A stretch of DNA of 64,000 nucleotides, from assembly GCF_018777395.1 (NCBI RefSeq), contig NZ_JAFJYC010000001.1, positions 2,046,001 to 2,110,000 of the forward strand, in the 5' to 3' direction. The stretch is from Candidatus Sodalis endolongispinus (GTDB lineage Bacteria; Pseudomonadota; Gammaproteobacteria; Enterobacterales; Enterobacteriaceae). The position numbers were made by a program, and so were the translations under genes. Within the stretch, counting starts at the first letter, position 1, and each line of letters opens with the position of its first letter. The notes beneath the pieces are model-generated. The model made no database searches, was not told where the DNA came from, and was given only the letters and a program-made list of their open reading frames with translations. Shown in pieces: positions 24,389 through 60,381 of the stretch.

Positions 24389-25549
24389 TTAATCCGCCTG
24401 TTTACGCAAAAATGCCGGGATATCCAGGTAGTCGGGTTTCTTACCCCCCTGGGCGTTTTGCTCATTGACCGCCTTGGCCGCCGTTTTCTGCTCTTGATTG
24501 AGCGAAGACATGCCCGCGGTGTGATCGCGGTAGCGGTTATCCATCACCGGCTGGCTGCTCTGCTTACTGGTCACCAGCGTGATTTCCGGCCGTTTGTCCA
24601 TGCCGATGCCGGTCGCGACTACGGTAACGCGCAGTTCGTCGTTCATGTCGGGATCCAGCGAAGTACCGATAACCACCGTGGCATTGTCGGAGGCGAAGGC
24701 GCGGATGGTATTACCCACGGTTTCAAATTCGTCCAGACGCAGGTCGAATCCCGCGGTAATGTTGACCATAACCCCACGGGCGCCGGACAGATCGATATCT
24801 TCCAGTAGCGGGCTGGAGATGGCCATTTCCGCCGCTTCTTCCGCGCGATCTTCGCCGCAGGCAACGCCGGAGCCCATCATGGCATAGCCCATTTCCGACA
24901 TCACGGTGCGCACGTCGGCAAAGTCGACGTTCATCAGTCCCGGGCGGGTGATAAGCTCGGCGATACCCTGCACCGCGCCTTTCAGTACATCGTTGGCGGC
25001 GCCGAACGCGTCGAGCAGTGAAATACCGCGCCCCAGGACTTTCAGCAGCTTGTCGTTAGGGATGGTGATAAGCGAGTCGACATGCTTGGAGAGTTCAGCA
25101 ATGCCCTGCTCGGCGAACGCCATACGTTTTTTGCCCTCAAAATTAAAGGGCTTAGTGACCACAGCCACGATCAGGATACCCAGATCCTTGGCGACTTCCG
25201 CGACAACCGGCGCGGCGCCGGTACCTGTACCACCGCCCATACCGGCGGCGATAAACACCATATCGGCCCCTTCGAGCGCGGCCCGCAGCGCTTCGCGGTC
25301 CTCTTCGGCGGAGTTGCGGCCCACTTCGGGATTGGCGCCGGCTCCCAGCCCTTTGGTAATGCCGCTGCCGATTTGAATGGTCTGGCCCACCGCCGTCTTA
25401 CGCAATGCCTGCGCATCGGTATTCACCGCGAAGAAGTCCACGCCTTCGATGCGCTCGCGCACCATATGCTCGACGGCGTTGCCGCCACCGCCGCCGACGC
25501 CGATGACTTTAATCACCGCGTCGTTGGTTAATTCCATAGGTTCAAACAT
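24389..25549 (-). CDS. ftsZ: Cell division GTPase FtsZ
   Basis: Tubulin homologue that forms the Z-ring. The start [20 protein letters not shown] at 25549 gives 386 residues (E. coli 383); the frame extends 16 codons upstream without similarity. The tubulin signature [11 protein letters not shown] lies at about residues 103-113, with the T7 loop [11 protein letters not shown] at about 207. The conserved C-terminal peptide [15 protein letters not shown], which binds FtsA and ZipA, is present. It lies 72 nt downstream of ftsA. Intact. Confidence 0.98.
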
Positions 25550-25621
25550 AATTTCTCTCCGTTTTGTGCCTGTCGCTTCGGAATCGGCCGCCTGCACAGC
25601 CGGGCCACGTCTTGAAAATCG

Positions 25622-26878
25622 TTAAAATTCTTTTCGCAGCCAGCCGCTGAACCGCTTAAACCATGTGCTGACTGACGTTCGTTTTTCCACGTCTACTTCG
25701 CCGCTTAAATGTGACTCTTTACCGTAATGCAGTAGCCCCACGGCGGTAGAATAATAGGGCGCCTGCGCATAATCCGTCAGACCGGTGATATTCAGCGGCT
25801 GGCCGATACGCACCTGGGTATGAAATACCCGCTGCGCGCACGCCGCCAAACCGTCGATTTGCGCCGCGCCGCCGGTCAGGACGATGCCGGCGGCCAGATG
25901 GTGTTTCACCCCCTGCGCCCGCAGTTGCTCCTGCAGTTGCAAAATTTCGTCATTGACCAGATTCAGCAGCTCGGTGTAACGCGGCTCGATCACCTCGGCC
26001 AGGGTCTGGCGCTGCAAGCTGCGCGGCGGCCGGCCGCCGACGCTCGGCACCTCCACGCTCTCGTCCTTGCTGACCATCGCGCCCAATGCGCAGCCGTGGC
26101 GGACTTTGGTCGCCTCGGCGTCGGTGGGCGGCGTGCCGAAGGCGTAGGCGATGTCGCTGGTGACCACATTGCCGGCGTAAGGGATCACCTTGGTATGGCG
26201 CAGTGCGCCGGCGGTATACACCGCCATGTCCATGGTGCCGCCGCCGATGTCGACCACGCATACGCCCAGTTCGCGTTCATTCTCGGTCAGAACCGCGTAA
26301 CTTGACGCCAGTCCGGCGAAAATAAGTTGGTCAACTTTCAGCCCGCAACGTTCAACCGCTTTGACAATGTTCTTTGCCATATCATTATGGCAGGTAATCA
26401 GATGGACCTTGGCCTGCATGCGTACGCCGGACAGACCCACCGGATTTTTTATTCCTTCCTGATAGTCAATCGCATAGTCCTGCGGGATGACGTGCAAGAT
26501 ACGGTGCTCATCGCGCACCCGCACCGATTTGGCGGTATGCACCACATTTTCCACGTCTTCCTGGGTCACTTCTTCTTCCGAAATCGGCACCATGCCGATT
26601 TCATTCTGGCAGCTGATATGTTCGCCGGACAGGGCAAGATACACCGACGAGATCTGGCAGTCCGCCATCAGCTCCGCCTGATCAATAGCGCGCTGGACGC
26701 ATTTCACCACCGATTCCAGATCGTTAACGCCACCTTTGTCCATGCCGCGCGACGGGCAACTGCCGACGCCGATGATATTCACCATACCATCGGGCAGCAC
26801 CTCCCCTACCAACGCGGCCACCTTGGCCGTGCCGATCTCCAGTCCTACTACCAGTTTTCTGTCCGTCGCCTTGATCAT
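25622..26878 (-). CDS. ftsA: Cell division protein FtsA
   Basis: Actin-like protein that tethers FtsZ to the membrane, 418 residues (E. coli 420). The ATPase core shows VVGLEIGTAKVAALVGEV and CVVDIGGGTMDMAVYTAG, with adenosine contacts in GIVLTGGAAQIDGL. The 1C domain includes CQNEIGMVPISEEEVTQED. The membrane-targeting amphipathic C-terminus FKRFSGWLRKEF is kept. Its ATG overlaps the ftsQ stop by one base. Intact. Confidence 0.98.
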   Translation of the reverse strand: MIKATDRKLVVGLEIGTAKVAALVGEVLPDGMVNIIGVGSCPSRGMDKGGVNDLESVVKCVQRAIDQAELMADCQISSVYLALSGEHISCQNEIGMVPISEEEVTQEDVENVVHTAKSVRVRDEHRILHVIPQDYAIDYQEGIKNPVGLSGVRMQAKVHLITCHNDMAKNIVKAVERCGLKVDQLIFAGLASSYAVLTENERELGVCVVDIGGGTMDMAVYTAGALRHTKVIPYAGNVVTSDIAYAFGTPPTDAEATKVRHGCALGAMVSKDESVEVPSVGGRPPRSLQRQTLAEVIEPRYTELLNLVNDEILQLQEQLRAQGVKHHLAAGIVLTGGAAQIDGLAACAQRVFHTQVRIGQPLNITGLTDYAQAPYYSTAVGLLHYGKESHLSGEVDVEKRTSVSTWFKRFSGWLRKEF

Positions 26879-27711
26879 TATTGTTCTGCCTGTGCCTGAG
26901 TCTGTTGCTGATTACTGTTTTCCGGTTCGATATAGGCCGCGGCCCATCCGACAGCCAAGCCCGAGTCATAGCGCAGGTCCACATAGCTGATGCGCTTATT
27001 ATCGTTCCGGGCCTGCTGGAGAAGAACCGGATAAATCCCGATAAAACGCTGCAGGCGCCTGGCTCTGTCGTCCCGGCCCAGCTCCAGCCGGGTATCGTCC
27101 CGTAACGTCAACTGCCACGAATGGCGGGCGCTCATGCTGACCGCCTTGAGCTGAAACTTGGCCGCCGTCAGCACCGCGTTCATGGTGCGATAGCCGCTCA
27201 GCACATCTTGCTCACTGCCCTCCGGGCCATAAAGCATCGGCATGGGCTGATTGCCGATACGCTCCGCCGGCGCGCTAAATACCTCGCCGCTGCCGTCCAG
27301 CAGATGTTGATCGTTCCAGCGCGCCACCGGCACATATTCCACCAGGTGGATTTTCAACTCGTCCGGCCACTGTTTACGCACGCTAACCTGCTTTATCCAC
27401 GGCATGCGCTCAATTTGCTGCTGAATGACGTTGACGTCCTGCGTCATAGAGGTGCCGGGCGCTCCCAGCGCCGGAATCGCCTGGCGGATATCGTCATTGG
27501 TGGTGTAATGACGTTCTCCGGTCACCACCAGCCGGGACAGCGGTAAACGGTGGGCATCTTTCATCCAGCCCACGACCATCCAACCCCCCCAGAAGATGGT
27601 GCCGAGCACCATCAACAAGAAGATCAGACCCGCGAGCTGGCCGCCGTTGCTGCGTCCCGCAGCGGCTCTCTCCGTCTCACGGTTGCGTACGTTTATCGCC
27701 GCCTGCGACAT
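26878..27711 (-). CDS. ftsQ: Cell division protein FtsQ
   Basis: Bitopic inner-membrane divisome protein that recruits FtsB and FtsL. I start at [19 protein letters not shown] (27711), giving 277 residues (E. coli 276). One membrane span lies at about residues 28-48 ([20 protein letters not shown]). The POTRA domain begins [20 protein letters not shown] and the beta domain includes [20 protein letters not shown]. It should normally follow ddlB, but here lies 56 nt after the murC stop. Overlaps ftsA by one base. Intact. Confidence 0.95.
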
Positions 27712-27767
27712 GTCAGGCCGCTCCCGCCGCGACGACCGTCTGCGCATGCCGCTGAAAATCGAGCCGT

Positions 27768-29240
27768 TTACCCATGACATCCCTCGCCCGGCTGCGGCTG
27801 CAGCCTGCTGTCAGCCAATTTACGGGCGATTTTGCCCACCGTACCGGCGCCCTGCATCAGCACCAAATCGTTGTCTTGCAGCGCCAGCGCCAGCGTCGCG
27901 GGAAGCGCATCCATATCCGGCACCAGAATCGGGTCCACCTTGCCGCGGCCGCGAATAGTGCGGCATAAAGAGCGGCTGTCGGCACCGGGGATCGGCGCTT
28001 CTCCGGCGGGATAGACGTCCAGCATCAGCAGGACATCCACGCCGGAGAGGACGTTGGCGAAATCGTCGTACAAGTCCCGCGTGCGGGTATAGCGGTGCGG
28101 CTGAAACACCATCACCAGCCGCTTGTCCGGCCAGCCGGCACGCGCCGCTTTAATCGTGGCGTCCACCTCGGTCGGGTGATGGCCGTAATCGTCCACCAGC
28201 ATCACTTCGCCCGTTTTGCCGTTGACGTTGGCCAAATCGTAACGGCCCAAATCATCAAAGCGGCGTCCGGTGCCCTGAAATTGCAGCATCGCCTGCAAAA
28301 TGCTCTCGTCGTTGATGCCTTCTTTGGTCGCCACCGCAATCGCCGCCACCGCATTCAGCGCGTTGTGGCGACCCGGTGCGTTGAGCTCCACCCGTAAATC
28401 GGCTTTTTCCTGCCGGGTGAGGGTAAAGCTGCCGCGCGCACCGTCCTGACGGTAATCGGTGATCCGCAAATCGGCATCGTCGCTGAAGCCATACGTGGTG
28501 ATCTGGCGCCCGACGCGGGTCAGCAGTTCGCGGATCACCGGATCGTCGATACACATCACCGCACGGCCGTAAAACGGCAGATTGTGCAGAAAGTTGATAA
28601 ACGTCTGCTTGAGATTTTCAAAGTCGCCCTGATAAGTATCCATATGGTCGGCTTCGATATTGGTAATAATCGCCACAATCGGCTGCAAATGCAGGAAGGA
28701 GGCGTCGCTTTCGTCGGCCTCGGCAATCAGGTAGCGACTGCAGCCCAAACGGGCATGCACGCCGGCGGCTTTCACCAGTCCGCCGTTCACGAAGGTCGGA
28801 TCTAGGCCGGCCTCGGCATAAATACTGGCCACCATCGCGGTGGTGGTGGTTTTACCGTGCGTACCGGCAATAGCAATACCGTGGCGAAAACGCATCAGCT
28901 CCGCCAGCATCTCCGCACGCTGAATGACCGGAATACGCGCCTCTTTGGCCGCCACAATTTCCGGGTTATCGGCCGCGATGGCGCTCGACACCACCACCAC
29001 GCTGGCGTCGCTGATATTCTCCTGGCGGTGGTTGAAATAAATCTGCGCACCCAGGTCCGTCAGTTGCTGCGTCACCGCGTTCGGCGCCAGATCGGAGCCG
29101 CTGATTTGATAGCCCTCGTTCGCCAGCACTTCCGCGATACCGCCCATGCCGGCACCGCCGATGCCGACAAAATGGATTTGCCTGACGCGGCGCATCTCGG
29201 GGACAAACGTTCGCAGTTTAGCCAGTTGTTGTGTATTCAC
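27768..29240 (-). CDS. murC: UDP-N-acetylmuramate-L-alanine ligase
   Basis: Adds L-Ala to UDP-MurNAc, the first amino acid of the peptidoglycan stem. It is 490 residues (E. coli 491). The N-terminal domain has [20 protein letters not shown], the ATP loop is [12 protein letters not shown] (about residue 125) and the central domain has [14 protein letters not shown] and [10 protein letters not shown]. The C-terminal domain includes [16 protein letters not shown] and [18 protein letters not shown]. It is followed directly by ftsQ because ddlB is missing; the extreme C-terminus [10 protein letters not shown] differs from E. coli, and the deletion may have touched it. Confidence 0.96.
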
Positions 29241-29311: not shown

Positions 29312-30379
29312 TCAGGCGCGCACCGCTGCCGCCACTTCCCGCGCCACGCGCTCCGTAGCATCGGGTATCGCCACCGCCCGGGCGCGTTGCGCCATGGTCA
29401 GCAACGTCGGCCGATCCCAGCCGGCCAGTACGTCGCTGACCCGCTCAACGTTAAAGGCCGGCTGCTCAATAATTTTCGCCGCGCCGGCCTGCTCCAGCGG
29501 CCGCGCGTTCCAGTACTGCTGACGATCTTTGTGCATAAACGGCACAAACAGGGCCGGCAGGCCGGCGGCGGCGATTTCGCTCACCGTCAGCGCCCCGGAG
29601 CGGCACACCACCACATCTGCCCAGGCGTAGGCGGCGGCCATATCGTCGATGAATTCCACCATCTTGTGCTGCGTCTCGCCGCTCGCCGCGTAGGCCCGGT
29701 TAACCTCATCCAGCGCCCCTTTCCCTACCTGATGCCACAGCGTCAAGCTGCCCGCTAACCGGGCGGCGACCGCCGGCATGGTCTGATTGAGCACCCGCGC
29801 GCCCTGGCTGCCGCCGATAATCAGTACCCGAATCGGCCCTGTGCGATCGCGAAAGCGCGCTTCGGGCGCCGGCAGCGCCAGCACCGCATCACGTACCGGA
29901 TTGCCCACCACCTCGGCATGGGGGAAGGCGCCGGGAAACGCCTGCAGCACTTTGCGGGCAATTTTCGCCAGGCCGCGGTTGGTCAGGCCGGCGATACCGT
30001 TCTGCTCGTGCAGGACCACCGGAATGCCGCAGCTCCAGGCCGCCAGACCGCCGGGCCCGGAGACATAACCGCCCATGCCCAGTACCACATCCGGCCGCCA
30101 GGCGCGCATAATCCGCCGCGCCTGACGCCAGGCGCGCCAGATGCGCACCGGCGCCAGCAGTTGCGCTTTCAATCCCTTGCCGCGCAGGCCGCTGATGCGG
30201 ATGACATCGATTTCAATGCCGTGCTGCGGCACTAGATCGGCTTCCATGCGATCGGCGGTGCCGAGCCAGCGGACCCGCCAGCCCTGCGCCATCAGGTGAT
30301 GCGCGACCGCCAGCCCCGGTAACACATGTCCGCCGGTACCGCCCGCCATCACCATCAACCGCCTGGTCTTTGCCGTCAT
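29312..30379 (-). CDS. murG: Lipid II synthase MurG
   Basis: Peripheral inner-membrane glycosyltransferase that adds GlcNAc to lipid I. It is 355 residues, identical in length to E. coli. The N-terminal Rossmann domain has the G-loop [17 protein letters not shown] and [15 protein letters not shown]. The C-terminal UDP-GlcNAc domain has [16 protein letters not shown] and [20 protein letters not shown]. It overlaps ftsW by 4 nt. Intact. Confidence 0.97.
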
Positions 30380-31578
30380 CGCGGTCCCCTCGCAAACGCC
30401 TGCGCCTTGGCCAGACGCGTCTCAAAATCCACTCTCAGCAGCAGGACTATCGCCGTCGACATGATAAGCAGGCTCGAACCACCGTAGCTGATTAACGGCA
30501 GGGTCAAGCCTTTGGTCGGCAGCATGCCGGCGGCGGCGCCCACGTTGACCAGCGCCTGGAAGCTAAACCAGATACCGATGGAACAGGCCAGAAAACCGGA
30601 AAAGCGCTGGTCGATTTCAAGCGCTTTGCGGCCGATCGACATGGCGCGGAACGCAACCAAAAACACCATTAGTAGCGCCAGCACCACGCCGAAGTAACCC
30701 AGCTCTTCGCCCAAAATGGCGAAGATAAAGTCGGTATGGGCTTCCGGTAAATACTCCAGTTTCTGTACCGAGTTGCCCAGTCCCTGTCCCCAGAACTCGC
30801 CGCGGCCAAACGCCATGAGCGACTGGGTAAGCTGGTAGCCGCTGCCGAAGGGATCATCCCACGGGTTCCAAAATGACGTCACGCGCCGCATACGGTAGGG
30901 CTCAGCGATGATGAGCAATACCACCGCGAAAATGCCCGAACCGATAATCGATAAGAATTGCCATAGCTTGGCGCCGGCCAAAAACAACATCGCCAGGGTG
31001 GTGACGAACACCACCACCACGGTGCCGAGATCGGGCTGCGCGAGCAGCAGTACCGCCAGAAGCACCATCACGCCCATCGGTTTGCAAAATCCCCAGAAGT
31101 TAGTACGTACTTCCTCTACCTTACGCACCAGATAACTGGCCAGATAGCAAAACAGTGCCAGCTTGGATAATTCCGCCGGCTGGATGCGCAGCGGCCCGAG
31201 CGCTATCCAGCGCGACGCGCCGTTAACCGAACTACCGACCACCAGCACCACCAACAGCATCACCAGCGTGATAAGCAGCATCACCGAGCTGTAGCGCTGC
31301 CAGACCGCCATCGGGATCCTGAGCGTTGCCAGCGACAGCACAAACGCCAGACCGAGATAAAACGCATCACGTTTGGCAAAGTAGAACGGGTCGTCCGACA
31401 GGCGCGCCCCGATCGGCATCGACGCCGAGGTCACCATCACGAAACCGATACCGGCCAGCCCCAGCGTCAGCCACAGCAGCGTACGATCGTAGAGCAGATG
31501 GGTCGGTGCCTCAGGCTCGCGCGCCCCCATCACCCACGCCTTCAGGCGGGGGATCATGCCTAAACCGGGAAAGCGCAT
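30376..31578 (-). CDS. ftsW: Septal peptidoglycan glycosyltransferase FtsW
   Basis: SEDS-family polytopic membrane polymerase of septal lipid II, 400 residues (E. coli 414; the N-terminal cytoplasmic part is shorter). About ten hydrophobic spans are present. Conserved motifs are [70 protein letters not shown] and [15 protein letters not shown]. It starts where the murD stop ends (one-base overlap) and overlaps murG by 4 nt. Intact. Confidence 0.97.
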
Positions 31579-32894
31579 CAGCCTACCTCCCGCGCCAGGC
31601 GGGTGAACACGTCACCACGCACTTCAAAATTGCTGAACTGGTCCAGGCTGGCGCAGGCCGGCGACAGTAGCACCAGATCCCCTGCCCTCACCCGGGAACC
31701 GATGATGCGCATCGCCTGCTCCAGCGTCTCGGTGAGCGTCGCGGCGTCGGGACGCAGGGACGCCAACTGCGCGCCATCCTGGCCGAAACAATACAGTTGC
31801 ACCCGGTCGCCCTGCAGCCACGGCGAGAGCGGCATGAAATCGGCGGATTTACCATCGCCGCCCAACAGCAAATGCAGCGTACCCGCCACATCGAGTCCGT
31901 TCAGCGCCGCCTCGGTACTGCCCACATTGGTCGCTTTGGAATCATTAATCCAGCGTACGCCGCGGCGTTCATGCACCAACTCAAAACGGTGCGCCAGACC
32001 GCGGAACTGCCGCAGCGCCGCCAGACTTGCCGCGCGCGGGATGCCCACTGCATCCGCCAGCGCCAGTGCCGCCAGGGCGTTGGTGTAATTATGGCGGCCG
32101 CCGATGCGCAGTTCCGCACCTTCCAGCAGCGGCTCGCCGTTCGCCATCAGCCAGGTCTGCCCCGCATGCCGGCGGAGGCAATAGTCGCCGCGCTCCGCGC
32201 AGAAGCTGACGCAGCGCGCGTCATGTCCGCGCACCGGCAGGGTAAGCGCATCCTCTGCGTTGACCACGCAGACCGTAGCATCGTGGTAAATTTCCAGCTT
32301 GGCCGCCCGGTACTGTTGCAGGCCAAGCGGATAGCGGTTCATGTGGTCTTCACTGATATTGAGAACCGTCGCCGCCGCCGCTTTCAGGCTATGGGTGGTT
32401 TCCAGCTGGAAGCTCGACAGCTCCAGAACATACAGCTGGCACGGCGATTCCAAAAGCGTCAGCGCCGGCAGACCGATATTGCCACCAACGCCCACCTGCC
32501 AGCCGGCGGCGGCAGCCATTTCGCCCACCATACGGGTGACGGTGCTTTTGCCGTTGGAACCGGTTATCGCCACCACCGGCGCCGATGCCTCACGCGCGAA
32601 CAGCTCGATATCGCCGACAATGGCAACGCCGGCCGTCGCGGCCGCGGCCAGCGCGGGATGCGACAGGGGAACGCCGGGGCTGGTGACGATAAGCGTCGCG
32701 TCGAGAAACCACGCCTCGTTCAGCGACCCCAGGTGGCGCAGCACCTCGGCCGGCAGTTTCTCAAGACCCGGCGGCGTAAAACGGGTGTCCATCACCCGCG
32801 CCGTCATGCCACGGCGGCGGAAGAAGCCAACGCAGGAAAGGCCGGTAAGCCCCAGCCCGATGATGACCACTTGTTCGCCCCGATAGTCCGTCAT
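31578..32894 (-). CDS. murD: UDP-N-acetylmuramoyl-L-alanine-D-glutamate ligase
   Basis: Adds D-Glu to UDP-MurNAc-L-Ala. The start [20 protein letters not shown] at 32894 gives 438 residues, the E. coli length; 20 codons of open frame upstream are mraY 3' sequence. The ATP loop is [16 protein letters not shown] (about residues 111-126). Other signatures are [27 protein letters not shown] (active-site His), [17 protein letters not shown] and [12 protein letters not shown]. It begins 2 nt after mraY. Intact. Confidence 0.97.
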
Positions 32895-32896
32895 TA

Positions 32897-33979
32897 TTAC
32901 CGTACCTTCAGCGTTGCCAGTCCGATGATGACCAGCATCAGGGAAATAATCCAAAAACGCACGATGACGCGCGGCTCCGGCCAGCCCTTCAATTCATAAT
33001 GGTGATGGATGGGCGCCATACGGAAAATGCGCTGACCGCGCAATTTGAACGAGCCCACCTGTAAAATCACCGACAGGGTTTCCACCACGAACACCCCGCC
33101 CATAATCAGCAGTAAAAACTCCTGGCGCAGCAGCACGGCGATAGTGCCGAGCGCGCCGCCCAGCGCCAGCGAACCGACGTCGCCCATAAACACCTGCGCG
33201 GGGTAGGTGTTGAACCACAAAAAGCCCAGCCCGGCGCCGACAATGGCCGTGCACACCACCACCAGCTCACCCGCTAAGCGCACATAAGGTATGTGCAAAT
33301 AGCCGGCAAAATTCATGTTGCCGGTCGCCCACGCCACCAGCGCCAGACCGGCGGCGACAAACACCGTCGGCATAATCGCCAGACCGTCCAGACCGTCGGT
33401 CAAGTTGACCGCATTACTGGTGCCGACGATGACAAAGTAGGCTAAAAGCATATACCACAGCCCTAGCTGCGGCATGATGTCCTTGAAAAACGGCACCACC
33501 AACTGGGTCGCCGGCGTGTCTTTGCCCACCGCGAACATGGTGAAGGCAACCGCCAGCGCTATTACCGACTGCCAGAAATATTTCCAGCGGGCGATAAGCC
33601 CCTTGGTGTCTTTGCGTACCACCTTGCGATAATCGTCGATAAAGCCGACGATGCCGTAGCCCACCAGGACAAACAGCACACACCAGACATACGGGTTGGA
33701 CGGATAGGCCCACATCAATACCGAAATCGTGATCGAGGTGAGGATCATCAACCCACCCATGGTCGGCGTGCCGCGTTTGGTGAAATGCGATTCCGGGCCA
33801 TCATTGCGCAACACCTGTCCGATCTGCAGTTTTTGCAGCCAGGCGATAAGGCGCGGTCCCATCCACAGCGACAGGAACAGCGCGGTCAGCAGGCTGACGA
33901 TGGCGCGAAACGTCAAGTAAGAGAAGACGTTAAATCCTGAATAAAATTTGACCAGATGTTCGGCCAGCCACACTAACAT
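32897..33979 (-). CDS. mraY: Phospho-MurNAc-pentapeptide translocase MraY
   Basis: Integral membrane enzyme that transfers phospho-MurNAc-pentapeptide to undecaprenyl phosphate, making lipid I. It is 360 residues, as in E. coli, with ten hydrophobic spans. Catalytic motifs are [27 protein letters not shown] (catalytic Asp pair), [13 protein letters not shown] and the [15 protein letters not shown] loop. It overlaps the murF stop by 7 nt. Intact. Confidence 0.98.
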
Positions 33980-35339
33980 GGTGCTTTCTCCTGTAACGCG
34001 CGCACCACCTGCTCCATCGCGGCACTACGTGAACCCTTCACTAATACGGTTATTACCGCCTGTTCGGACAGCAGCTGCGCCAGTCGGGCGGTCAGCGCTG
34101 TTTTGTCCTGGAAATGTTTGCCCCGGCCGCTGGCCTCACCGATAAGATGGCTCAGACTGCCGACGCTTAAGACTTTGTCGATACCGGCCAGGGCGACGGC
34201 TTCGCCGACCTGTCGATGGCATTCCGCCGCTTCCTCTCCCAGCTCGGCCATATCGCCGACCACCATCACCCGGTAGCCCGGCATTTCCGCTAGTACCTGC
34301 GCGGCAGCGGTCATGGAGCCAACATTGGCGTTATAGCTATCGTCCAGCAGCAGCCGGCCGGCGCCGAGCGCAATAGGGAACAACCGTCCCGGCACGGCCT
34401 GCAACTGCGCCAGACCGGCGGCAACCGCCGGCAGTCCCGCCCCCACAGACAGCGCCAGTGCGCAGGCGGCCAGGGCATTGGCGACATTATGCTTGCCTGG
34501 CAGCGGTAGCCGCACCGGGCATTCTCCCTGCGGACTGTGCAGGGTGAAACGCACGCCCTGCTGATCGCTTGCGATGTCGCTGGCAAAAAATCCACGCCGT
34601 CGGCGGCCTGTACGGCAAAACGCCAGACCGCCTTGTGGCCCAGTACCTGTTGCCAGTGCGGCCAATCATGACTGTCGGCGTTAAGAATGCCACGTCCATT
34701 GGCCGGCAGGCCGGCGAAAATTTCGCCCTTGGCCTGCGCCACGCCCGACAACGAGCCGAACCCGGCCAGATGGGCCGCGGAAAGGTTGTTCACCAGCGCG
34801 GTTTCCGGGCGCACCAAATCGGTGGTCCAGGCGATTTCGCCAAGATGATTGGCTCCCAGCTCGATAACCGCAAAATCATGCGCCGGCGTCAGGCGCAGCA
34901 GCGTCAGCGGTACGCCAATATCGTTGTTAAAATTACCTTCGGTCGCCAGCACCTGCCCGCATTGGCGCAGGATGGCGGCGGTCATTTCCTTGACCGACGT
35001 TTTGCCGGAGGACCCCGTCAGGGCCACAACCCGCGAAGGGACCTGCTGGCGCACCCAGGCGCCCAATTGGCCCAGCGCGCGTCGGGTATCGGCGACAACC
35101 AACTGCGGCACGTCCAGCGGCAGCCGGCGGTTGACCAGCAGCGCGGTGGCACCGGCGGCGACCGCCTGCTCGGCGAAATCATGGGCGTCGAACTGATCGC
35201 CTTTCAGCGCGACAAATAAACACCGCTGCGCCGCCGCCGGCGCCCGCGAGTCGGTGACGAGGGTTTCGATGGTGCCATCACTGCCCACCCGTTCGGCATT
35301 TAGCACCGGCGCGATAGCGCTGAGCGTAAAGGGGATCAT
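33973..35339 (-). pseudogene. murF: UDP-MurNAc-tripeptide:D-Ala-D-Ala ligase MurF, split by a -1 frameshift
   Basis: Adds D-Ala-D-Ala to complete the UDP-MurNAc pentapeptide; normally essential. Frame 1 from [14 protein letters not shown] (35339) gives the N-terminal and ATP domains (VALTGSSGKTSVKEMTAAIL, NFNNDIGVPLTLLRL, IELGANHLGEIAW) and then turns nonsense after AADGVDF. The family sequence resumes in another frame at FFASDIASDQQGVRF and runs intact to ALQEKAPC (33973), including DDSYNANVGSMTAA and ILVKGSRS-like [18 protein letters not shown]. The break is a run of six T on the coding strand (34585-34590). Seven T would restore a gap-free alignment. It could be a true null, a recoded gene or a sequencing error. 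The flanking dcw genes are intact. Confidence 0.9.
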
Positions 35340-36823
35340 GCCACCACCCCCAACAGCCGCGCCACGGTAGTACGGTCGGAATAGTCCAGCCGCTGCTGGC
35401 CGATTATCTGGTAATCCTCATGGCCCTTACCGGCCACCAGCACCAGATCCGCCGGCGCGGCCTGCATAATGGCGCTGGTAACCGCTTCGGCGCGGCCGGA
35501 AATCGCCTGCACCCGGCCCGCATCCAGCAGGCCGCTCTTAATGTCGTTGATGATATCCTGCGCCGCTTCGCCGCGCGGATTATCATCGGTGATGATCACC
35601 CGGTCGGCGAACTGCTCTGCGATAGCGCCCATCAGCGGCCGTTTACCCTTATCACGATCGCCGCCGCAGCCGAACACGCACCACAGTTTGCCGTGGCAAT
35701 GCAGTCTGGCCGCCGCCAACGCCTTTTCCAGCGCGTCAGGGGTGTGGGCATAATCCACCAGCACCGTAGGGCGGCCTTCGGTATGAAACACCTCCATGCG
35801 ACCGCAGACCGACTGCAGGCGGCTGGCGCACTCAAGCAGCGCCGGCAGCGGATAGCCGAGCGCCAGCAGCGTGGTGAGCGCCAGCAACAGATTGCTGACG
35901 TTGAATTGCCCCACCAATGGGCTGTTGAGCGTCCCTTCGCCCCAGCTGGAGCGAAAAGGGATCTCCGCGCCGCGCGCATGATAACGTACCTCGCCGGCGC
36001 ACAGCCAGTCGCCATGGCGTTCCATCGGCAGCGCCTCGCTGACCGCGACCGCAATCGCCTGCGGCAACCTTTCGAGCCAGCGCCGGCCGGTGGCATCATC
36101 GGCGTTGATGATGCGCTGACTCACGTCCAACTCGCTAAACAGCCGCCATTTGGCCGCTTCGTACTGCGCCATGTCGCCGTGATAATCAAGATGGTCGCGG
36201 CTTAAATTGGTAAACACCGCGGCGGCAAAATGCACATCGCTGACCCGATGCTGCACCAGGCCGTGGGAGGAGACTTCCATCGCCGCGAAGCGCGCGCCTT
36301 GCCGCTGCAGCTGTGACAGCAGCTGTTGGACTTCAATCGGTGAACCGGTGGTATTGTCGGCCGGATGGATATGGCCCAGCACGCCGTTGCCGACGGTGCC
36401 CATCACCGCGCTAGTTTCACCTAATAGCTGCGCCCACTGCGCCAGAAGATGGGTGGTGGTGGTTTTGCCGTTGGTGCCGGTGACGCCCACCAGGCGCAAC
36501 GCGCGCGACGGCTGCTGATAAAAGCGCCCCGCCAGCGCGGATAAACGCGCATGTAGATGGTGGAGATAGATGACCGGCACGCCACGCAGCTCACTGATTT
36601 CACCCTCTTCAGCCTCACCTTCCGCTTGTGCCACGACGGCGGCAACGCCCTGCGCGATCGCCTGGGGAATATAGCGACGCCCGTCCGTCTGATGGCCGGC
36701 GACGGCCACAAACAGATCGCCCGCAGCCGCGATTCGGCTATCCAGCGTCATTTCCCTCAGCACGCGTTCCGTGGCATCAGGTACCCAGGGCACGAGCAGC
36801 TCACGCAAATTACGATCGGTCAC
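35336..36823 (-). CDS. murE: UDP-MurNAc-L-Ala-D-Glu:meso-diaminopimelate ligase
   Basis: Adds meso-diaminopimelate to the stem peptide. I chose the GTG at 36823 ([20 protein letters not shown]), giving 495 residues exactly as in E. coli; the upstream part of the frame is ftsI 3' coding sequence. The ATP loop is [18 protein letters not shown] (about residues 111-128). Also seen are [55 protein letters not shown], and the DAP-specificity motif TDDNPRGE (DNPR). It overlaps ftsI by 14 nt and murF by 4 nt. Intact. Confidence 0.97.
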
Positions 36824-38582
36824 CGGATGCCTCTTTTCGATTATTGACCACCATGTCGGATTTCTCACCGGGCTGCGGCAACGCATCCGGCTCTATGTTC
36901 ATTGTCCGCAGTACACCGTCCATAATGGCGCCAAATACCGGCGCGGAGACCGCCCCGCCGTAGTATTTGCCGCCCTGCGGATCGTTAATCACCACCACCA
37001 GCGCAAAGCGCGGATTGCTGGCCGGCGCGACACCGGCGGTATAGGCGATATATTTATTAATGTAATTGCCATCCGGCCCGACCTTTTTGGCGGTACCGGT
37101 TTTAATAGCGATACGGTAGCCCTTAATGGCGGCTTTAGTGCCGCCGCCGCCCGGCAGCGCCACACTTTCCATCATGTGAACCACGGTACGTACCAGCGCT
37201 TCGGGAAACACCCGCTCTCCCGCCACGGGCGGATCGACCCGAGTGATGGAAAGCGGGCGTAGCACACCCATGCCGCCGATCGTGGCGTAGACCCGCGCTA
37301 ATTGTAACGGCGTTACCATTAGCCCGTAGCCGTAAGAGAAGGCGGCCTTCTCCATGTCGGACCACCGTTGTTTATGGGGATATAAGCCACTGCTTTCTCC
37401 GACCAGACCCAAATTGGTCGCCTTACCCAATCCAAAGCGCGAGTAAGTTTCTACCAGCGCCGAGGAGGGCATCGCTAACGCCAGCTTAGACACACCGACG
37501 TTACTCGATTTTTGCAAAATCCCGGTCACGGTCAATTCGGCATAGCGCGCCACGTCCTTAATTTGGTGGCCGCTAATCATGTAGGGCAGCGTATTTATTA
37601 CGCTGTTTTCTCGCACCACGCCGCGCTGTAGCGCGGTCATCACCACCATCGGCTTGACCGTCGAGCCCGGCTCGAAAATATCGGTGATAGCGCGGTTGCG
37701 CATCACGTCCATCGTGGTTCCGGTCAGGTTGTTGGGGTTGTAGGAGGGGCTATTGGCCATGGCCAGTACTTCGCCGGTATTAACATCCACCAGCACTGCG
37801 GTGCCGGACTCGGCTTTATTGAACGCCACCGCGTTGTTCAACTCGCGATAAACCAGCGCCTGTAGACGCTCGTCGATGCTGAGCGCCAGATTGTGCGCCG
37901 CCTGGCTGTCCACCGAGAAAATATCCTCTATGACCAGGCCGAACCGGTCTTTGCGCACCGTACGCTCGCCGGGCTGGCCGGTCAGCCAGCGGTCAAAGCT
38001 CTTCTCTATGCCCTCAATGCCCTGGCTATCGATATTGGTCACACCGATGAGATGCGCGGTCACCTGACCTGCGGGATAGTAGCGCCGCGACTCTTGGCGC
38101 AGGTAAATGCCCGGCAGTTTAAGTTTATGGATGTAATCGCCGATAGCAGGATTAACCTGGCGCGCCAGATAGATAAAACGCCCTTTGGGATTGGCGTTAA
38201 TGCGCGATGATAGCTGATCGAGAGGGATGGAAAGCGCATCCGACAGCGCCTTCCAGCGGCTGTCGGCGCTGATGCCGCCATGATCGTTAAGCTCTTTCGG
38301 ATCGGCCAAGATGGCGTTGACCGGCACGCTCACCGCCAGCGGACGGCCGGCGCGGTCGCTTATCATACCGCGCGCGGTGGGAACCTGCTGCACGCGCAGC
38401 GAACGCATATCCCCTTCGCGCACCAGTTTGTCGGGATTAATTACCTGCAAATAGGCCACCCGCAGCATCAGCCCTACCAACGCCAGCAGGATGCAACCGC
38501 ACAGCAAGGCGAAACGCCAGCTGACAAAGCTGGTCTGGTTCTCCTGGCGTTTCAGTTTCATCGTGCGTGCTGCGGCTTTCAT
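36810..38582 (-). CDS. ftsI: Septal transpeptidase FtsI (PBP3)
   Basis: Class B penicillin-binding protein that cross-links septal peptidoglycan. It is 590 residues (E. coli 588). A single membrane anchor lies at about residues 22-44 ([20 protein letters not shown]). The transpeptidase motifs are GSTVKP (SxxK, about residue 308), SSN (about 360) and KTGTAK (about 495). The class B signature [15 protein letters not shown] follows the anchor. It lies 25 nt after ftsL and overlaps murE by 14 nt. Intact. Confidence 0.98.
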
Positions 38583-38607
38583 GTATCGTTATCGATCCCT
38601 GTGTAGA

Positions 38608-38928
38608 TTACGGTTGAACCACAATATTTTCTTGTGACGGACTCACATGCTGCATCTGAAGTTTCTCGGTGGCGATACGCTCCACGCGGCTGTGATCCCC
38701 CAGCGCGTTCTCTTCCAGGATCAGGTTGCGCCATTCGATATCCAGCGCGTCCTTCTCCAGCACCATCTGTTCACGTTCCGCGGTCAGCCGCCGGGTCTGG
38801 TGGGTCGTCATCACCACCAAAACTGCGGAGACCAGGACCGCAATCAGCAACAATAGCGGCAGCTTGCCTTGGCGCAGCAAATCGCTGCCGATAACGCCTA
38901 TCAGGCCGTGACGTTCGTTGCCGATCAT
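38608..38928 (-). CDS. ftsL: Cell division protein FtsL
   Basis: Small bitopic divisome protein of the FtsQLB complex, 106 residues (E. coli 121; the cytoplasmic tail is shorter). A membrane span lies at about residues 22-43 ([20 protein letters not shown]), then a periplasmic coiled coil ([20 protein letters not shown]). The C-terminal [20 protein letters not shown], then [17 protein letters not shown], is almost identical to E. coli. The start at 38928 overlaps the rsmH stop by 4 nt. Intact. Confidence 0.95.
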
Positions 38929-39872
38929 GGCGCCAGCTTCTCAGCGAAACGCAGCACCGAACTGCGCGCGCGCGGGTTATCGCTTATCTCCCGCGCCGAA
39001 GGCTGCATTTTGCCCGCCGCTTTCAGTTGGCGCTGGTCCCGGTACTGTGCGGCGATCTGCGCTTCCGTGAGCGGCAACCCCGCCGGCACTTGCGGTCCGC
39101 GGCTGTGCTGACGAATAAATTGTTTCACCAATCGATCCTCCAGCGAATGGAAGCTGATAACCGACAACCTGCCCCCGGGGGCCAACACCCTGAGCGCGCC
39201 GTCCAGCGCCCGTTCGATCTCTTCCAGCTCGCTGTTGATGTAAATGCGGATCGCCTGGAAACTACGCGTCGCCGGATGCTTATGCTTGTCGCGAAACGGG
39301 CTGGCGTCGGCAATCAGCGCCGCCAGTTCGCGGGTGCGGGTCATCGGCTGCTGGAGGTTGTGCGCCACGATGGCCTGCGCAATTCGCTTGGCGAAGCGCT
39401 CTTCGCCAAAGGTCTTCAACACCCAGGCAATGTCCTCCGCTGACGCCTGCGCCAGCCACTGCGCGGCAGACTGGCCGCGCGTGGTATCCATACGCATATC
39501 CAGCGGTCCATCGCGCATAAACGAAAAACCGCGTTCCGGGTCGTCGAGCTGAGGCGAAGAGACGCCGAGATCCAGCAATATACCGTCAACCTTGCCCAGC
39601 AGGTCCCGTTGCGCCATGTACTCCGCCATGGCGGAAAATGGCCCGTGGATAATGGTAAAACGCGCATCGTCGCTGGCCTGCGCCGCCTCGATGGCCGCCG
39701 GATCGCGATCGATAGCGAACAGCCGTCCCTGCGCGCCCAGCTTTGATAAAATAAGACGCGAATGCCCGCCGCGCCCGAATGTCCCGTCCAGATAGACGCC
39801 GTCTGGCCGAAGATCCAGCCCCTTCACCGCTTCATCCAGCAGCACGGTGGTATGTAAATAATTTTCTGACAT
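38925..39872 (-). CDS. rsmH: 16S rRNA (cytosine1402-N4)-methyltransferase
   Basis: SAM-dependent methyltransferase (formerly MraW) acting on C1402 in the ribosomal P site. It is 315 residues (E. coli 313). The SAM-binding region is [20 protein letters not shown], with [14 protein letters not shown]. Family motifs [33 protein letters not shown] and [16 protein letters not shown] are all present. It starts 2 nt after the mraZ stop. Intact. Confidence 0.97.
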
Positions 39873-39874
39873 GG

Positions 39875-40333
39875 CTATAGCGATAAGTCTTGCAGCCGGT
39901 CGGTAAGCGGTAGCTTCGCCGACAGCTCAGCGTCGATGTCATCCTTGACTTGTTGATACCAGGTCTGTTCGTCCCACAACTCGAACTTATTGAATTGCCC
40001 AACCAGCATCACTTCTTTTGACAGCCCGGCGTGCTGCCGGAGCGTCGGCGCCAGCAGAATTCTGCCTGCGCCATCCATCTGGCACTCGCTCGCATGCCCC
40101 AGCAACAAACGCTGCACCCGGCGTTCCGCGGGGTTCATGCTCGACAATCGCGACAGCTTTTGTTCAATGATTTCCCAGGCCGGCAAGGGGTAAAGCAACA
40201 GACATGGCTGATGGAGGTCAATGGTACACACCATTAAACCTGCCGATTCCTCATTCAGCTTTTCCCGGTGACGGGTAGGCACGGCGAGCCGGCCTTTGCT
40301 GTCAAGGTTAACCAAGGTTGCGCCACGAAACAT
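39875..40333 (-). CDS. mraZ: Transcriptional regulator MraZ
   Basis: AbrB-fold (SpoVT/AbrB) DNA-binding protein that represses the dcw operon, 152 residues as in E. coli. The two tandem motifs [14 protein letters not shown] (about residues 11-24) and [14 protein letters not shown] (about 88-101) are the hallmark. It begins [15 protein letters not shown]. It is the first gene of the dcw operon, and three MraZ boxes lie 31-55 bp upstream. Intact. Confidence 0.97.
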
Positions 40334-43684: not shown

Positions 43685-45389
43685 TCAGGTCCTCTCCGTT
43701 TTACTTAGCCACATTTCATCCATGCCGCCGCCGCGAATTTGCATGGGGTAAACGTGTTCCGTGCCATCCACCATCACGTCCACGAACAACAGACGGTTTT
43801 TCACCGCCAGCGCCTGTGCCAGCTTGGATTCCAGCTCATCGTGCCGCTCAATGGCGATACCAACCCGCCAACTTCACGAAGTCCGGCAGGGACGCCATAT
43901 AGGATTGGGAGTGGCGGCCGGAATAAATCATGTCCTGCCACTGTTTCACCATGCCGAGATAGCGGTTGTTCAAACTGACCACCACCACCGGCAGATCATA
44001 TTGCAGTGCGGTGGACAACTCCTGAATATTCATCTGGATACTGCCATCGCCGGTGATGCACAGCACGGTTTCCTGGGGAAAGGCCATCTTCACCCCGAGC
44101 GCCGCCGGCAGGCCAAAGCCCATGGTGCCCAGACCGCCGGAGTTGATCCAGCGCCGCGGTTCATCGAATGGATAATACAGCGCGGCAAACATCTGATGCT
44201 GACCGACGTCGGAGGTCACGTAAGCGTTACCTTGCGTCAGCCGGTACAGCGTCTCGATCACCGCCTGGGGTTTAATTTTATCGCTGCTGCTGTCGTAGTT
44301 TAGGCAGGCGCGGGCGCGCCACTGTTCGATATCACGCCACCAATCACGTAGCGCGTCGAACGGCTGACGGTTTTCTCCGGCCGCCAGCAGCTCCAGCATC
44401 TGTTCAAGGACTTGGCGGGCGTCGCCAACAATCGGTACGTCGGCGGTGACGGTTTTGGAAATCGACGCCGGATCGATATCGATATGCAGTACCGTCGCAT
44501 CTGGACAGTATTTCGCCAGATTGTTGGTAGTGCGATCGTCAAATCGAACCCAGACGGCGAAAATTACGTCGGCGCGATGCATCGCCATATTCGCCTCGTA
44601 GGTGCCGTGCATCCCCAGCATACCCAGGCTTTGCCGATGGCTGCCGGGGAAACTGCCCAACCCCATCAGCGAGCTCACCACCGGCAAATTCAGCTGTTCG
44701 GCCAGTTGACGCAGCGCGTGATGGCAGGCGGAGGTAATGGCACCGCCACCGGTATACACCACCGGCCGCCCGGCGGCGAGCAGGGTTGTGAGCGCGCGCC
44801 GGATTTGCCCCTTATGGCCCTGCACGGTCGGGTTGTACGAGCGCATCGACACCGCATCGGTATAAAGGTAGGGAAGCTTGTGCGCCGCGCTCAGTATGTC
44901 TTTGGGTAAATCGATCACTACCGGTCCCGGCCGGCCGCTGGCGGCCAGAAATAAGGCTTTTTTCAGCACCAGTGGAATATCTTCGGTTTTCTTCACCAGA
45001 AAGCTGTGTTTCACCACCGGGCGCGAGATGCCTATCATGTCGCATTCCTGAAAGGCGTCGTAGCCAATCAACGAGCTGGCTACCTGGCCGGACAACACCA
45101 CCAATGGAATCGAGTCCATATAGGCGGTGGCGATACCGGTGATCGCATTGGTGGCGCCTGGACCAGAGGTCACCAGCACCACGCCGACCTCGCCGGTGGC
45201 GCGGGCGTAGCCGTCGGCCATGTGTACCGCGCCATGTTCGTGACGCACCAGCACATGATCGATGCCGCCGACCGTGTACAACGCGTCATAAATATCCAGC
45301 ACGGCACCGCCGGGATAACCGAATACCTGCTTTACGCCCTGATCAATCAATGACCGGACCACCATCTCGGCTCCTGACAACATCTCCAT
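43685..45389 (-). pseudogene. ilvI: Acetolactate synthase III large subunit, frameshifted near the 3' end
   Basis: ThDP-dependent enzyme forming acetolactate and acetohydroxybutyrate for Ile/Val/Leu. Frame 1 from [20 protein letters not shown] gives 513 residues and ends [10 protein letters not shown] at 43848. The family C-terminus resumes in another frame ([20 protein letters not shown] to [12 protein letters not shown]) and stops at 43685. At the join about 14 nt are missing, where E. coli has EAYGHV after VRLA. About 60 C-terminal residues are lost from the main frame. The otherwise invariant Gly of AVGVRFDDR is Trp here (AVWVRFDDR). ThDP motifs ([18 protein letters not shown]) persist. 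It is likely non-functional or weak. Confidence 0.88.
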
Positions 45390-45898: not shown

Positions 45899-48497
<2,599 letters not shown>

Positions 48498-48502
48498 TTA
48501 AC

Positions 48503-49850
48503 ATGGGCAAGTCGTTATATCAAAAATTATACAATGCACACGTGGTCTATGAAGCGGAGAATGAAACGCCGCTTTTGTATATCGACCGCCATTTAGTGCA
48601 TGAAGTGACCTCGCCGCAGGCGTTCGACGGCTTGCGCGCTCAGGGCCGCAGAGTACGTCAACCGGGCAAAACCTTCGCCACCATGGACCACAACGTTTCC
48701 ACGCAAACCAAGGATATTAACGCCTGTGGCGAGATGGCCCGTATTCAGATGCAGGAGTTAATGAAAAACTGCGCCGAATTCGGCGTGCAGCTGTATGACC
48801 TGAACCACCCTTATCAAGGGATCGTCCACGTCATCGGCCCGGAGCAAGGGATGACTTTGCCGGGCATGACTATCGTCTGCGGCGATTCCCATACCGCAAC
48901 CCACGGCGCCTTCGGCGCGTTGGCGTTCGGTATTGGCACCTCGGAAGTGGAACACGTGCTGGCGACCCAGACCCTGAAACAGGGCCGGGCCAAAACCATG
49001 CAAGTGGACGTGACCGGCCACGCCGCCCCCGGCATTACCGCCAAGGATATCGTCCTGGCGATTATCGGTAAAATCGGCTCCGCCGGCGGTACCGGCCATG
49101 TAGTGGAATTCAGCGGCGCCGCCATCCGCGCGCTGAGCGTGGAAGGCCGCATGACGCTTTGCAATATGGCGATCGAAATGGGCGCCAAGGCGGGCCTGGT
49201 CGCCCTGGACCACACCACTTACGCCTACCTGCAAAACCGGCAGTTCGCGCCCAAAGGCGATGACTGGCATCAGGCCGTGATGTATTGGGACACCCTGAAA
49301 TCCGACGATGATGCCCGCTTCGACAAAGTCGTGACGCTGGATGCGCAGGACATCGCGCCGCAGGTGACCTGGGGCACCAACCCCGGCCAGGTGATTGCCG
49401 TCAATCAGGTTATCCCGTCGCCGGAGTCATTCAGCGATACGGTAGAGCGCAATTCCGCCGCCAAGGCGCTGGCCTACATGGATTTGCAGCCCGGCATTCG
49501 CCTTACCGACGTGACGATTGACAAGGTCTTCATCGGTTCTTGCACCAACTCGCGCATCGAAGACTTGCGCGCCGCCGCCGCCGTTGCCCGCGGCCGCCGC
49601 GTTGCCGCCAGCGTACAGGCGATCGTGGTGCCAGGTTCCGGTCCGGTCAAGGCGCAGGCGGAAGGGCTGGATAGAATTTTTCTCGACGCCGGCTTTGAAT
49701 GGCGCCTGCCGGGCTGCTCCATGTGTCTGGCGATGAACAATGACCGCCTGAACCCCGGTGAGCGCTGCGCGTCAACCAGCAATCGTAACTTTGAAGGCCG
49801 TCAGGGCCGCGGCGGCCGGCCGTTTCGCCGATATCCGCGAATTGAATTAA
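48503..49850 (+). pseudogene. leuC: 3-isopropylmalate dehydratase large subunit, 3'-end deletion and frameshift
   Basis: Aconitase-family isomerase subunit with a [4Fe-4S] cluster. It starts [20 protein letters not shown]. The three cluster Cys are present in [17 protein letters not shown] and [11 protein letters not shown]. The frame is correct to [10 protein letters not shown], then turns into [14 protein letters not shown] and runs on inside leuD to 49960. The real C-terminus [13 protein letters not shown] ends at 49850 in another frame. About 30 nt with the THLVSPAMA segment are missing between two GCGGCGGCC-like stretches, suggesting deletion across microhomology. Activity with the replaced tail is doubtful. 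Confidence 0.87.
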
Positions 49851-49860
49851 GGAAACAGAG

Positions 49861-50463
49861 ATGGCTAAATTTACCCAACATACCGGCATCGTGGTACCCC
49901 TTGACGCCGCCAACGTTGACACCGATGCGATTATCCCCAAGCAGTTTCTGCAGAAGGTGACCCGTACCGGTTTCGGCCAGCATTTATTCAACGATTGGCG
50001 CTTTCTGGACGACGCCGGGCAACAGCCTAACCCGGATTTCGTGCTGAATCAGCCGCGCTATCGCGGCGCCAGTATCCTGCTGGCGCGCGAAAACTTCGGC
50101 TGCGGCTCCTCCCGCGAGCATGCGCCCTGGGCGTTGACCGATTACGGCTTTCATGCCGTGATAGCACCAAGCTTTGCCGATATTTTCTATGGCAACAGCT
50201 TTAACAATCAGCTGCTACCGATTACGCTGCCGGAAGAACAGGTCAACGCGCTGTTTGCCCTGGTCGCGGCGCAAGAAGGGGTGACGTTTACCGTCGATCT
50301 GGAACGGCAGCAGGTCGTGGCCGGCGAAAAGATTTATCCTTTCGAGATAGACAGCTTCCGCCGCCATTGCCTGATAAACGGCCTCGACAGTATCGGCCTG
50401 ACGCTGATGCATGACGAGGCGATAGGCCAATACGAGAGCCGCCAGCCGGCGTTCCTGAACTGA
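49861..50463 (+). CDS. leuD: 3-isopropylmalate dehydratase small subunit
   Basis: Swivelling domain subunit of isopropylmalate isomerase, 200 residues (E. coli 201). Signatures are [20 protein letters not shown], the substrate-binding [14 protein letters not shown] and the [10 protein letters not shown] region. Intact and in the correct operon position, although leuA, leuB and leuC before it are broken; it would have no partner here unless leuC still works. Confidence 0.95.
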
Positions 50464-51088: not shown

Positions 51089-52766
51089 ATGACCTCACCG
51101 CGTTTACAGCAGCAATTTATCCGCCTGTGGCAAAGCTGCCAGGGCGAGTTGCGCGACACCACCATCAGCGAGTTGGCGTTACAGCTCAATTGCTCGCGCC
51201 GCCACGTCCTTTTGCTGCTGAAAAACATGCAGCAGGTAGGTTGGCTCAGTTGGCATTCCCAGGCCGGGCGCGGTAAACGTTCTCGACTGGACTTCCACTA
51301 TACCGGCTTGGGGTTGCAGGGAGAGAGCGCCAGCGAGCTGCTGGAGCAGGATCGTATCGATCAGTTGGTACAGCTGGTTGGGGATCGCGAGAGCCTGCGC
51401 ACCATGCTGCTTTCTCATCTGGGCCGGGGATTCCGTCAGGGTAAGCATATCCTGCGGGCGCTCTACTATCGCCCGCTGAGCAATTTGCTGCCCGGTACAC
51501 CGCTGCGGCGCTCGGACAACCATATCGTCCGATTTTCAGCGGCCTGACGCGCATAAATGAGGAAAACGGGGAACTGGAGGCGGATCTGGCCCACCACTGG
51601 CAAGCGCTGGCGCCCGACCATTGGCGTTTCTATCTGCGGCCGGCGGTGTGTTTTCATCACGGCCGGGAAATGACCGTCGACGATGTCATTCAATCGCTGT
51701 CGCGCATGACCGGCAACCCGCTGTTTGCCCCCATTCTGTCTCTGAATTCGCCGGCCCCACACACAATGGATATTCGGCTCGCCGAGCGCGACGATTGGCT
51801 GCCCTGGTTGCTGGCGAGCGTACCGGCGATGATCCTGCCTGCCGAATGGCGGACCCTGCCGGATTTTCCCCGCCTGCCGGTTGGTACCGGACCCTATTGC
51901 GTGGTGCGTAACCACCCGATCCAGCTCACCATCCGCGCCTTCGATGATTATTTCGGCTACCGGGCGCTTATCGATGAAGTCAATATCTGGGTATTACCAG
52001 AGCTTTCCCATGAACTCAGCTACAGCGTGGTTCAGTTGCAAAACGTGGGTGTTCCGCCTGCAGAGGACGGCAGCGACGGCGCCGCCGCGGAAATACGTCA
52101 GGAAGATGGTGCTACTTTCTCCTCTACGACCAGCGCTCACCGCTCATGCAGCAACCAGAGATACGTCGCTGGCTCGGTGACTATCTCAATCCGCTGGCGC
52201 TGTTGCCCCATACCCCGCCCCCAAGCCAGCATTTCTGGTCGCCGGCCTACGGGCTCCTACCGCGCTGGCATCATCGCCGTCATCAATCGCCGGCGGCCAA
52301 ACCGCCGGAACTAACCCGCCTGACTCTCACCCTTTATCGCCATCATGCCGAATTCGACGTGCTGGCCACCGCGTTAACGGCGCTATTAGCTGCACAGTCC
52401 ATCCAGTTGGACATTAACGCCGTGGACTATGAGCAGTGGTATCGCGGCGACGCCAGCACGGATATTTGGCTGGGCAGCGCCAATTTCTCGCTGCCGCTGT
52501 CGTTTTCGCTATTCGCCACCCTGTATGAGATGCCGCTGCTGCATCGCTGCCTGCCGCCGGCGCTGTTTGATGCGGCTGAACGTTGGCGCAAACGGCAACT
52601 GCCGATGGCGGAGTGGAGTCGATCGTTGGTCGACGAACATTGGCTGCACCCGCTATACCACAATTGGCTCAGCCTACAGGGCAGCCGCAGCATGCGCGGG
52701 ATCCGTATGAACACCCTGGGCTGGTTTGATTTCAAATCGGCCTGGTTCGCGCCGCCGGCGCCTTAG
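51089..52766 (+). pseudogene. sgrR: Sugar-phosphate stress regulator SgrR, two frameshifts
   Basis: Transcription factor with an N-terminal winged-helix ([36 protein letters not shown]) and a C-terminal solute-binding-protein-like domain. Frame 1 ends at 51547 after [10 protein letters not shown]. The family sequence resumes one frame over at [20 protein letters not shown] (about 51532), consistent with a 4-nt loss near 51530. It shifts again near 52109 (EIRQEDG to [12 protein letters not shown]; 1 nt lost) and then runs to GWFDFKSAWFAPPAP. All three parts are highly recognisable, so inactivation is recent. An isolated DNA-binding domain of 152 residues could be made but would lack the sensor. 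Confidence 0.9.
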
Positions 52767-52874
52767 CGCCTGCACGCCGCCTGAAGTATCATTTCTTTTA
52801 TTTTCTCTATTTGTGACACCAAATAGGGGATTTACTGTCAACCAGACTCGTAAGCATTTACAATCAATGCCGTT

Positions 52875-52975: not shown

Positions 52976-53023
52976 GCGCATTGCTGCCTCAAGTCCTTTG
53001 CAACCTTGTTCTAGGAGCGCAAA

Positions 53024-60379: not shown

Positions 60380-60381
60380 GG

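Follow-up and report, generated by a model that had tools for sequence, protein, structure and literature searches.

Apparent loss of murF through one missing base in Candidatus Sodalis endolongispinus, a nested symbiont of a mealybug

MurF adds D-Ala-D-Ala to UDP-MurNAc-tripeptide, and the import of a host-encoded MurF into the symbiont Moranella is said to have been described by Bublitz in 2019. In the mealybug Planococcus citri, a horizontally acquired MurF encoded by the host is found in the cytoplasm of Moranella, an intrabacterial symbiont (PMC12176269), and the P. citri host genes of bacterial origin include bioA, bioB, bioD, ribA, ribD, lysA, dapF, cysK, murA-F and ddlB (PMC5664097). 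The same transfers are described in Pseudococcus viburni and dated to before the split of Pseudococcus and Planococcus, and P. longispinus is named among the carriers of such horizontally acquired genes (PMC11032189). A review describes these host genes as lineage-specific and absent from some such mealybugs (PMC12176269). Slippage rescue of one-base frameshifts in homopolymers of otherwise intact essential genes is described for Blochmannia and Buchnera, whose genomes are AT-rich and whose tracts measure at least 9 and as much as 12 bp (PMC3017870), and the -1 frameshifting heptamers studied in Enterobacteriaceae have the form X_XXZ_ZZN (PMC4066793). For Sodalis endolongispinus itself, 303 near-complete pseudogenes are given, the definition being an almost full-length gene present as two ORFs (PMC13345370). 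The murF gene considered here belongs to the same genome and fits that definition, and differs from the general run of these pseudogenes in being normally essential; the main text of PMC13345370 makes no mention of it. In the literature on Sodalis and mealybug symbionts searched for murF and peptidoglycan, the break was not found, and Garber 2021, Husnik and McCutcheon 2016 and Bublitz 2019 may already list a murF pseudogene.

The window, by which is meant the whole stretch of 64,000 nucleotides that was analysed (positions 2,046,001-2,110,000 of contig C1), has a GC content of 59% and belongs to a genome of 3,728,128 bp in 4 contigs that is 85.11% complete. The genome is that of Candidatus Sodalis endolongispinus. 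ARAGORN finds in it a tmRNA with the tag ANDSQFESKTALAA, which is the tag given for Sodalis endolongispinus in PMC13345370, and the tag of G004, the relative that matched best in the initial search, is different. The same source describes a genome of 3.728 Mb with ~90% average identity to Sodalis praecaptivus. The insect host is the mealybug Pseudococcus longispinus, in which the organism shares the interior of Tremblaya with Symbiopectobacterium. An earlier note on this DNA, made from the letters alone, had supposed an insect-endosymbiont setting, and the organism is indeed a mealybug symbiont.

Unless a contig is named, coordinates are those of the window. The murF gene lies on the minus strand and is interrupted by a one-base frameshift at 34585-34590 (-), where A6 on the plus strand is T6 on the coding strand, exactly where the earlier note had placed the break. 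The zero-frame ORF (34311..35339, -) begins with the ATG at 35339, stops at 34311 and encodes 342 aa, against a normal length of 455 aa; it consists of 251 native residues, a Leu and 90 foreign residues. The 3' part (33973..34584, -) continues in the -1 frame and reaches the normal stop. Against the MurF family profile NCBIfam NF008041 (PRK10773), the two parts, each in its own frame, match positions 1-246 and 245-453 of 453, which means that the halves abut and nothing is missing, as the gap-free join proposed earlier implied. The gene therefore matches the MurF profile over its full length, with a frame change at 34585-34590 in place of a single uninterrupted frame. The two halves are 91.7% and 92.1% identical to the G004 protein, stop-free in their two frames, and the length of the ortholog is 1367 nt here as against 1368 nt in G004 and in G026, a second aligned relative. 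A larger rearrangement at the site was considered and ruled out, the surrounding alignment being contiguous. A search of a plasmid collection returned 12 records, all at 60-80% identity. In Candidatus Sodalis endolongispinus, murF appears to have been lost through one missing base.

The state before the break was read from an alignment of murF from 17 relatives (G004, G026 and 15 further), in all of which the gene is without internal stops. The two closest of the 17, G130 (94.8% nucleotide identity) and G127 (93.3%), both carry T7 at the site, as do 9 of the 17 overall. The T7 in the two nearest relatives supports a contraction from T7 to T6, as the earlier note had it; the TTTCTTT of G004 and G026 alone would have pointed to the loss of a C instead.

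The genes around murF are intact and of full length, which agrees with what had been said of the flanking mur and fts genes. All lie on the minus strand: ftsI, ftsL, rsmH and mraZ (36810..40333) and murE (35336..36886) on one side of murF, and mraY (32897..33979), murD (31578..32954, with homology starting at 32894), ftsW (30376..31578), murG (29312..30379), murC (27768..29240) and ftsQ, ftsA and ftsZ (24389..27780) on the other. Neither this genome nor G004 has a ddlB between murC and ftsQ. Outside the window, murA, murB, murI and murJ are open, as is a homologue of alanine racemase that shares 42% identity with E. coli Alr, and the other pathway genes tested are open except for Ddl. A first Ddl copy (contig C1, 831948-833042) is full length but for one in-frame TAG. 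A second can be followed for 298 codons, to the point where contig C1 ends (2691569). The end of contig C4 (857618) faces it at a distance of ~750 bp on the G004 scale, and the missing piece, which lies inside and after this copy, was sought in the rest of the genome and not found. G026 shows the second copy only, so that loss of the first is not telling. The possibility that the D-Ala-D-Ala branch is dead in its entirety was set aside, as one Ddl copy has a single nonsense codon and the other ends at an assembly gap. The earlier note had also allowed for another copy of murF. A search of the organism's own genome found no second murF, and the other two matches sit, by position, on murE and murD.

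Within the family, a murF match at E<=1e-60 is found in 224 of 256 genomes, and two of the 224, among the matches listed, have two murF matches. One is the present genome; the other is G024, where each piece stands at the end of a different contig. On re-check, G028 also has murF split in one contig and in two frames, its second piece falling below the E threshold; this refuted the idea that the present genome is the sole case among the 224 of murF split within one contig. G028 is a single contig of 5.1 Mb that is 49% complete and so looks like an error-ridden assembly. The number of split murF genes is a lower bound, the matches being those listed and G028 being the one genome re-checked among those with a single match. 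Thirty-two genomes have no murF match, and of the 20 of these that were listed, 19 have sizes of 200-600 kb and the other, G075, has 2.2 Mb. A split murF is therefore rare in the family, though not unique. The case of G028 leaves the balance between a real deletion and an error here unchanged, because G028 is visibly a poor assembly and in the present genome the other essential genes are whole.

Gene decay was surveyed in 304 kb of the genome (the window, its flanks and a ribosomal-protein region) aligned to 340 kb of G004. Genes called there by substitution pattern number 243, of which 138 are intact and 105 are flagged with a break or gap, some of the flags being artefacts of over-long starts or end points, as in murC and ftsQ. 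Among the remaining flags are nonsense codons as well as 4-, 14- and 47-bp deletions, so the decay is real. In the window, ilvI (43848-45389) has a 14-bp deletion near 43865 and the adjoining ilvH is intact. At 45899-50460, leuA has an in-frame stop, leuB a frame change and missing codons, and leuC a 47-bp deletion near 49814, and leuD looks whole beside them. Of two genes named by eye at 51089-55712, the one like sgrR is broken by 4-bp and 1-bp deletions, and the one like thiP has a T7 to T6 change near 55278 together with other indels and a stop. At 60346-64000, likewise named by eye, the 5' part of a polB-like gene is gone, and in a rapA-like gene there are two one-base insertions within the window. 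Elsewhere in the genome, the biotin operon (C4, 849348-854441) is decaying, with bioA, bioB, bioF and bioC broken and bioD open, and cysK (C1, 2567778-2568745) is split by a frame change, a weaker cysteine-synthase-like gene at 2561273-2562121 being open.

The age of the break was approached through the ratio of nonsynonymous to synonymous change (N/S) on the organism's own branch, taken at sites where G004 and G026 agree, so that the stem to those two is included. For murF the ratio is 0.35 (0.37 before the break and 0.32 after it), close to that of its intact neighbours murD (0.42), murG (0.41) and murE (0.49), with mraY and ftsI at 0.07 each. The broken genes ilvI (0.19) and leuC (0.12) have values as low or lower, and N/S therefore cannot date the break in murF. 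The break is recent, rescued or false, and N/S cannot choose between these. On the G026 branch, N/S comes close to 1 or exceeds it in many genes of the dcw region, on small counts, which is what a very young symbiont would be expected to show; murF is at 1.71 there and its frame is open.

In the aligned 304 kb, well-aligned stretches hold 135 one-base indels, of which 72 are insertions and 63 are deletions; 11 of the 135 fall within runs of at least six, the indel in murF being counted outside runs because G004 has a C at the site; genes called intact hold none of the 135, which is true by the definition of intact. A set of one-base indels that lie largely outside runs, with insertions about as frequent as deletions, is unlike raw long-read error, and together with the many pseudogenes made by nonsense codons and larger deletions it favours a real deletion over the reading in which the assembly miscounts T7 as T6 and murF is whole. 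One-base changes in runs of at least seven comprise 7 deletions and 1 insertion, and this bias speaks for a miscount, run contraction being the commonest long-read error. Runs of six to eight are nonetheless read in frame throughout the 138 intact genes (126,126 bases; A/T runs comprising 14 of seven, two of eight and 55 of six, and 15 G/C runs of six to seven), a comparison that is weaker evidence than it seems since intactness was the criterion by which these genes were chosen. In 59 genes essential in E. coli and named by eye (55,794 bases), which hold 33 runs of six, the T6 of murF included, and 6 runs of seven, only murF is broken; the minor flags among them are two one-base events before the real start of murC, a stop at the last codon of ftsQ, and 1 and 11 unaligned bases in dapB and folK. 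One error among so many essential genes is still not improbable, all the more as this case was chosen for being striking, and the T7 of the two closest of the 17 aligned relatives, the intact genes that flank murF, the lack of relaxed constraint in murF itself and the error-ridden look of G028, the other family genome with murF split in one contig, are all as a miscount would have them. On balance we infer that the base is truly missing: the deletion is probably real, and the miscounted run is an unlikely, if by no means negligible, explanation.

If the base is missing, some full-length MurF might still be made by slippage of RNA polymerase or by -1 frameshifting on the heptamer U_UUU_UUG (34584..34590, -), which belongs to the class described in PMC4066793 and stands in the zero frame as GAU UUU UUG. 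As in the Enterobacteriaceae heptamers, the X_XXZ_ZZN phase and the direction are right: after a -1 slip at GAU UUU UUG CCA the next codon is GCC and reading returns to the native frame (...VDFL-ASDI...), giving 455 aa with one Phe-to-Leu change. Such a heptamer arises automatically from the loss of one T, so that it bears no sign of design, all 17 aligned relatives have murF in a single frame, and no stimulator of the kind known from these heptamers stands out, folding at and after the site being near the shuffled expectation (z -1.08 and -0.86) and a Shine-Dalgarno-like element upstream having been judged by eye. Unstimulated heptamers in E. coli reach at most ~10x the background of 0.055%, and shifting is poorer on heterogeneous ZZN codons, of which UUG is one (PMC4066793). 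What murF shares with the cases in Blochmannia and Buchnera is an essential gene that is intact apart from a one-base frameshift within a homopolymer, and the frameshifted essential genes of Blochmannia speak for rescue; the tracts there are long, whereas the run in murF is T6, short of the ~9 or more of slippage-rescued homopolymers, in a window of 59% GC (PMC3017870). Short runs are not wholly without precedent, as all three T6 repeats of M.HaeIII, put through drift in the laboratory, still had indels after functional selection (PMC3812077). The nearly equal constraint on the two halves of murF also fits a product that is still made, but it is uninformative given the low N/S of the broken ilvI and leuC. 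Against rescue, peptides of Sodalis pseudogenes in the published proteome are ascribed to 77 truncated pseudogenes, and under the definitions of that source murF would count as near-complete and not as truncated (PMC13345370). Low-level rescue is thus possible, and so much of the earlier suggestion of recoding stands, but with a short run and no outstanding structure downstream it is not favoured, and we regard it as rather improbable. A cell that makes its wall without MurF, or that is losing its wall, would be a further way to dispense with the gene. The Buchnera of an Aphidini aphid, an endosymbiont that lacks murF, as this organism apparently does, lacks murC and murE too and is still labelled for cell wall (PMC9116674); no host MurF is invoked there, which sets it apart from what is proposed for Sodalis. 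The nonsense codon in the first Ddl copy would suit such a bypass in the present niche, but mraY, murG, murJ, ftsW, ftsI and murA-E are intact, which argues that the wall pathway is still in use, and a dispensable MurF seems very unlikely.

The reading that we prefer, if tentatively, is a real and very recent loss of the only murF found, tolerated because MurF activity would be supplied from outside the symbiont. A slippage contraction from T7 to T6 would have inactivated the gene, and the activity would then come most likely from the mealybug's own horizontally acquired MurF, which may reach the cytoplasm of Sodalis as it does that of Moranella in Planococcus citri. The setting is much the same in the two cases, a mealybug with a gammaproteobacterial symbiont that is nested in Tremblaya and has, in Sodalis apparently, no working murF (PMC12176269, PMC7154730), and the statement of the earlier note that MurF has no usual substitute does not hold where a host-encoded enzyme is present in the symbiont. 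As a whole, the interpretation in that note is partly supported. In Moranella the soluble precursor enzymes are said to be lost, whereas in Sodalis the breaks seen are confined to murF and one Ddl copy, with open frames at the other steps tested; the host MurF has been seen inside Moranella (PMC12176269) and is presumed inside Sodalis. Supply by the host would presuppose, by extension from P. citri and P. viburni, that murF is still present and expressed in P. longispinus and that the protein is delivered into Sodalis; if P. longispinus does have murF, its loss from the symbiont would be a change of the kind to be expected. Counted against supply by the host are the lineage-specific occurrence of such host genes and the intact murA-E of Sodalis, which are likewise on the P. 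citri host list.

Genes covered by the host are not lost in clear excess: 4 of 14 symbiont genes with a host counterpart in P. citri, Ddl set aside, are broken (bioA, bioB, cysK and murF), compared with 2 of 8 controls (bioF and bioC broken among bioF, bioC, ribE, ribB, ribC, dapA, dapE and dapD), and the numbers are small. Stops at the joins of joined queries were counted in this comparison as natural gene ends.

What the break means depends on which of these readings holds. In the case of an error, the locus warns how a single base suffices to give an essential gene in a public symbiont genome the appearance of a dead one; in the case of recoding, an essential gene would rest on a slip at T6. 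The murF locus offers a test case of one gene and one base, with data that are already public (P. longispinus genomic reads PRJEB12068, bacteriome RNA reads PRJNA1418813 and bacteriome proteome PXD074041). If the loss is real and the host supplies the enzyme, it would test the generality of host protein import into nested symbionts. The more far-reaching form of this account, which we think less likely than not, is that the break is the first visible step of an enzyme handover, in which a new nested symbiont has just lost murF and an older, imported host MurF now serves Sodalis. If that were true, the delivery of host proteins would extend beyond the symbiont with which the host co-evolved and would reach one that is new and was acquired independently.
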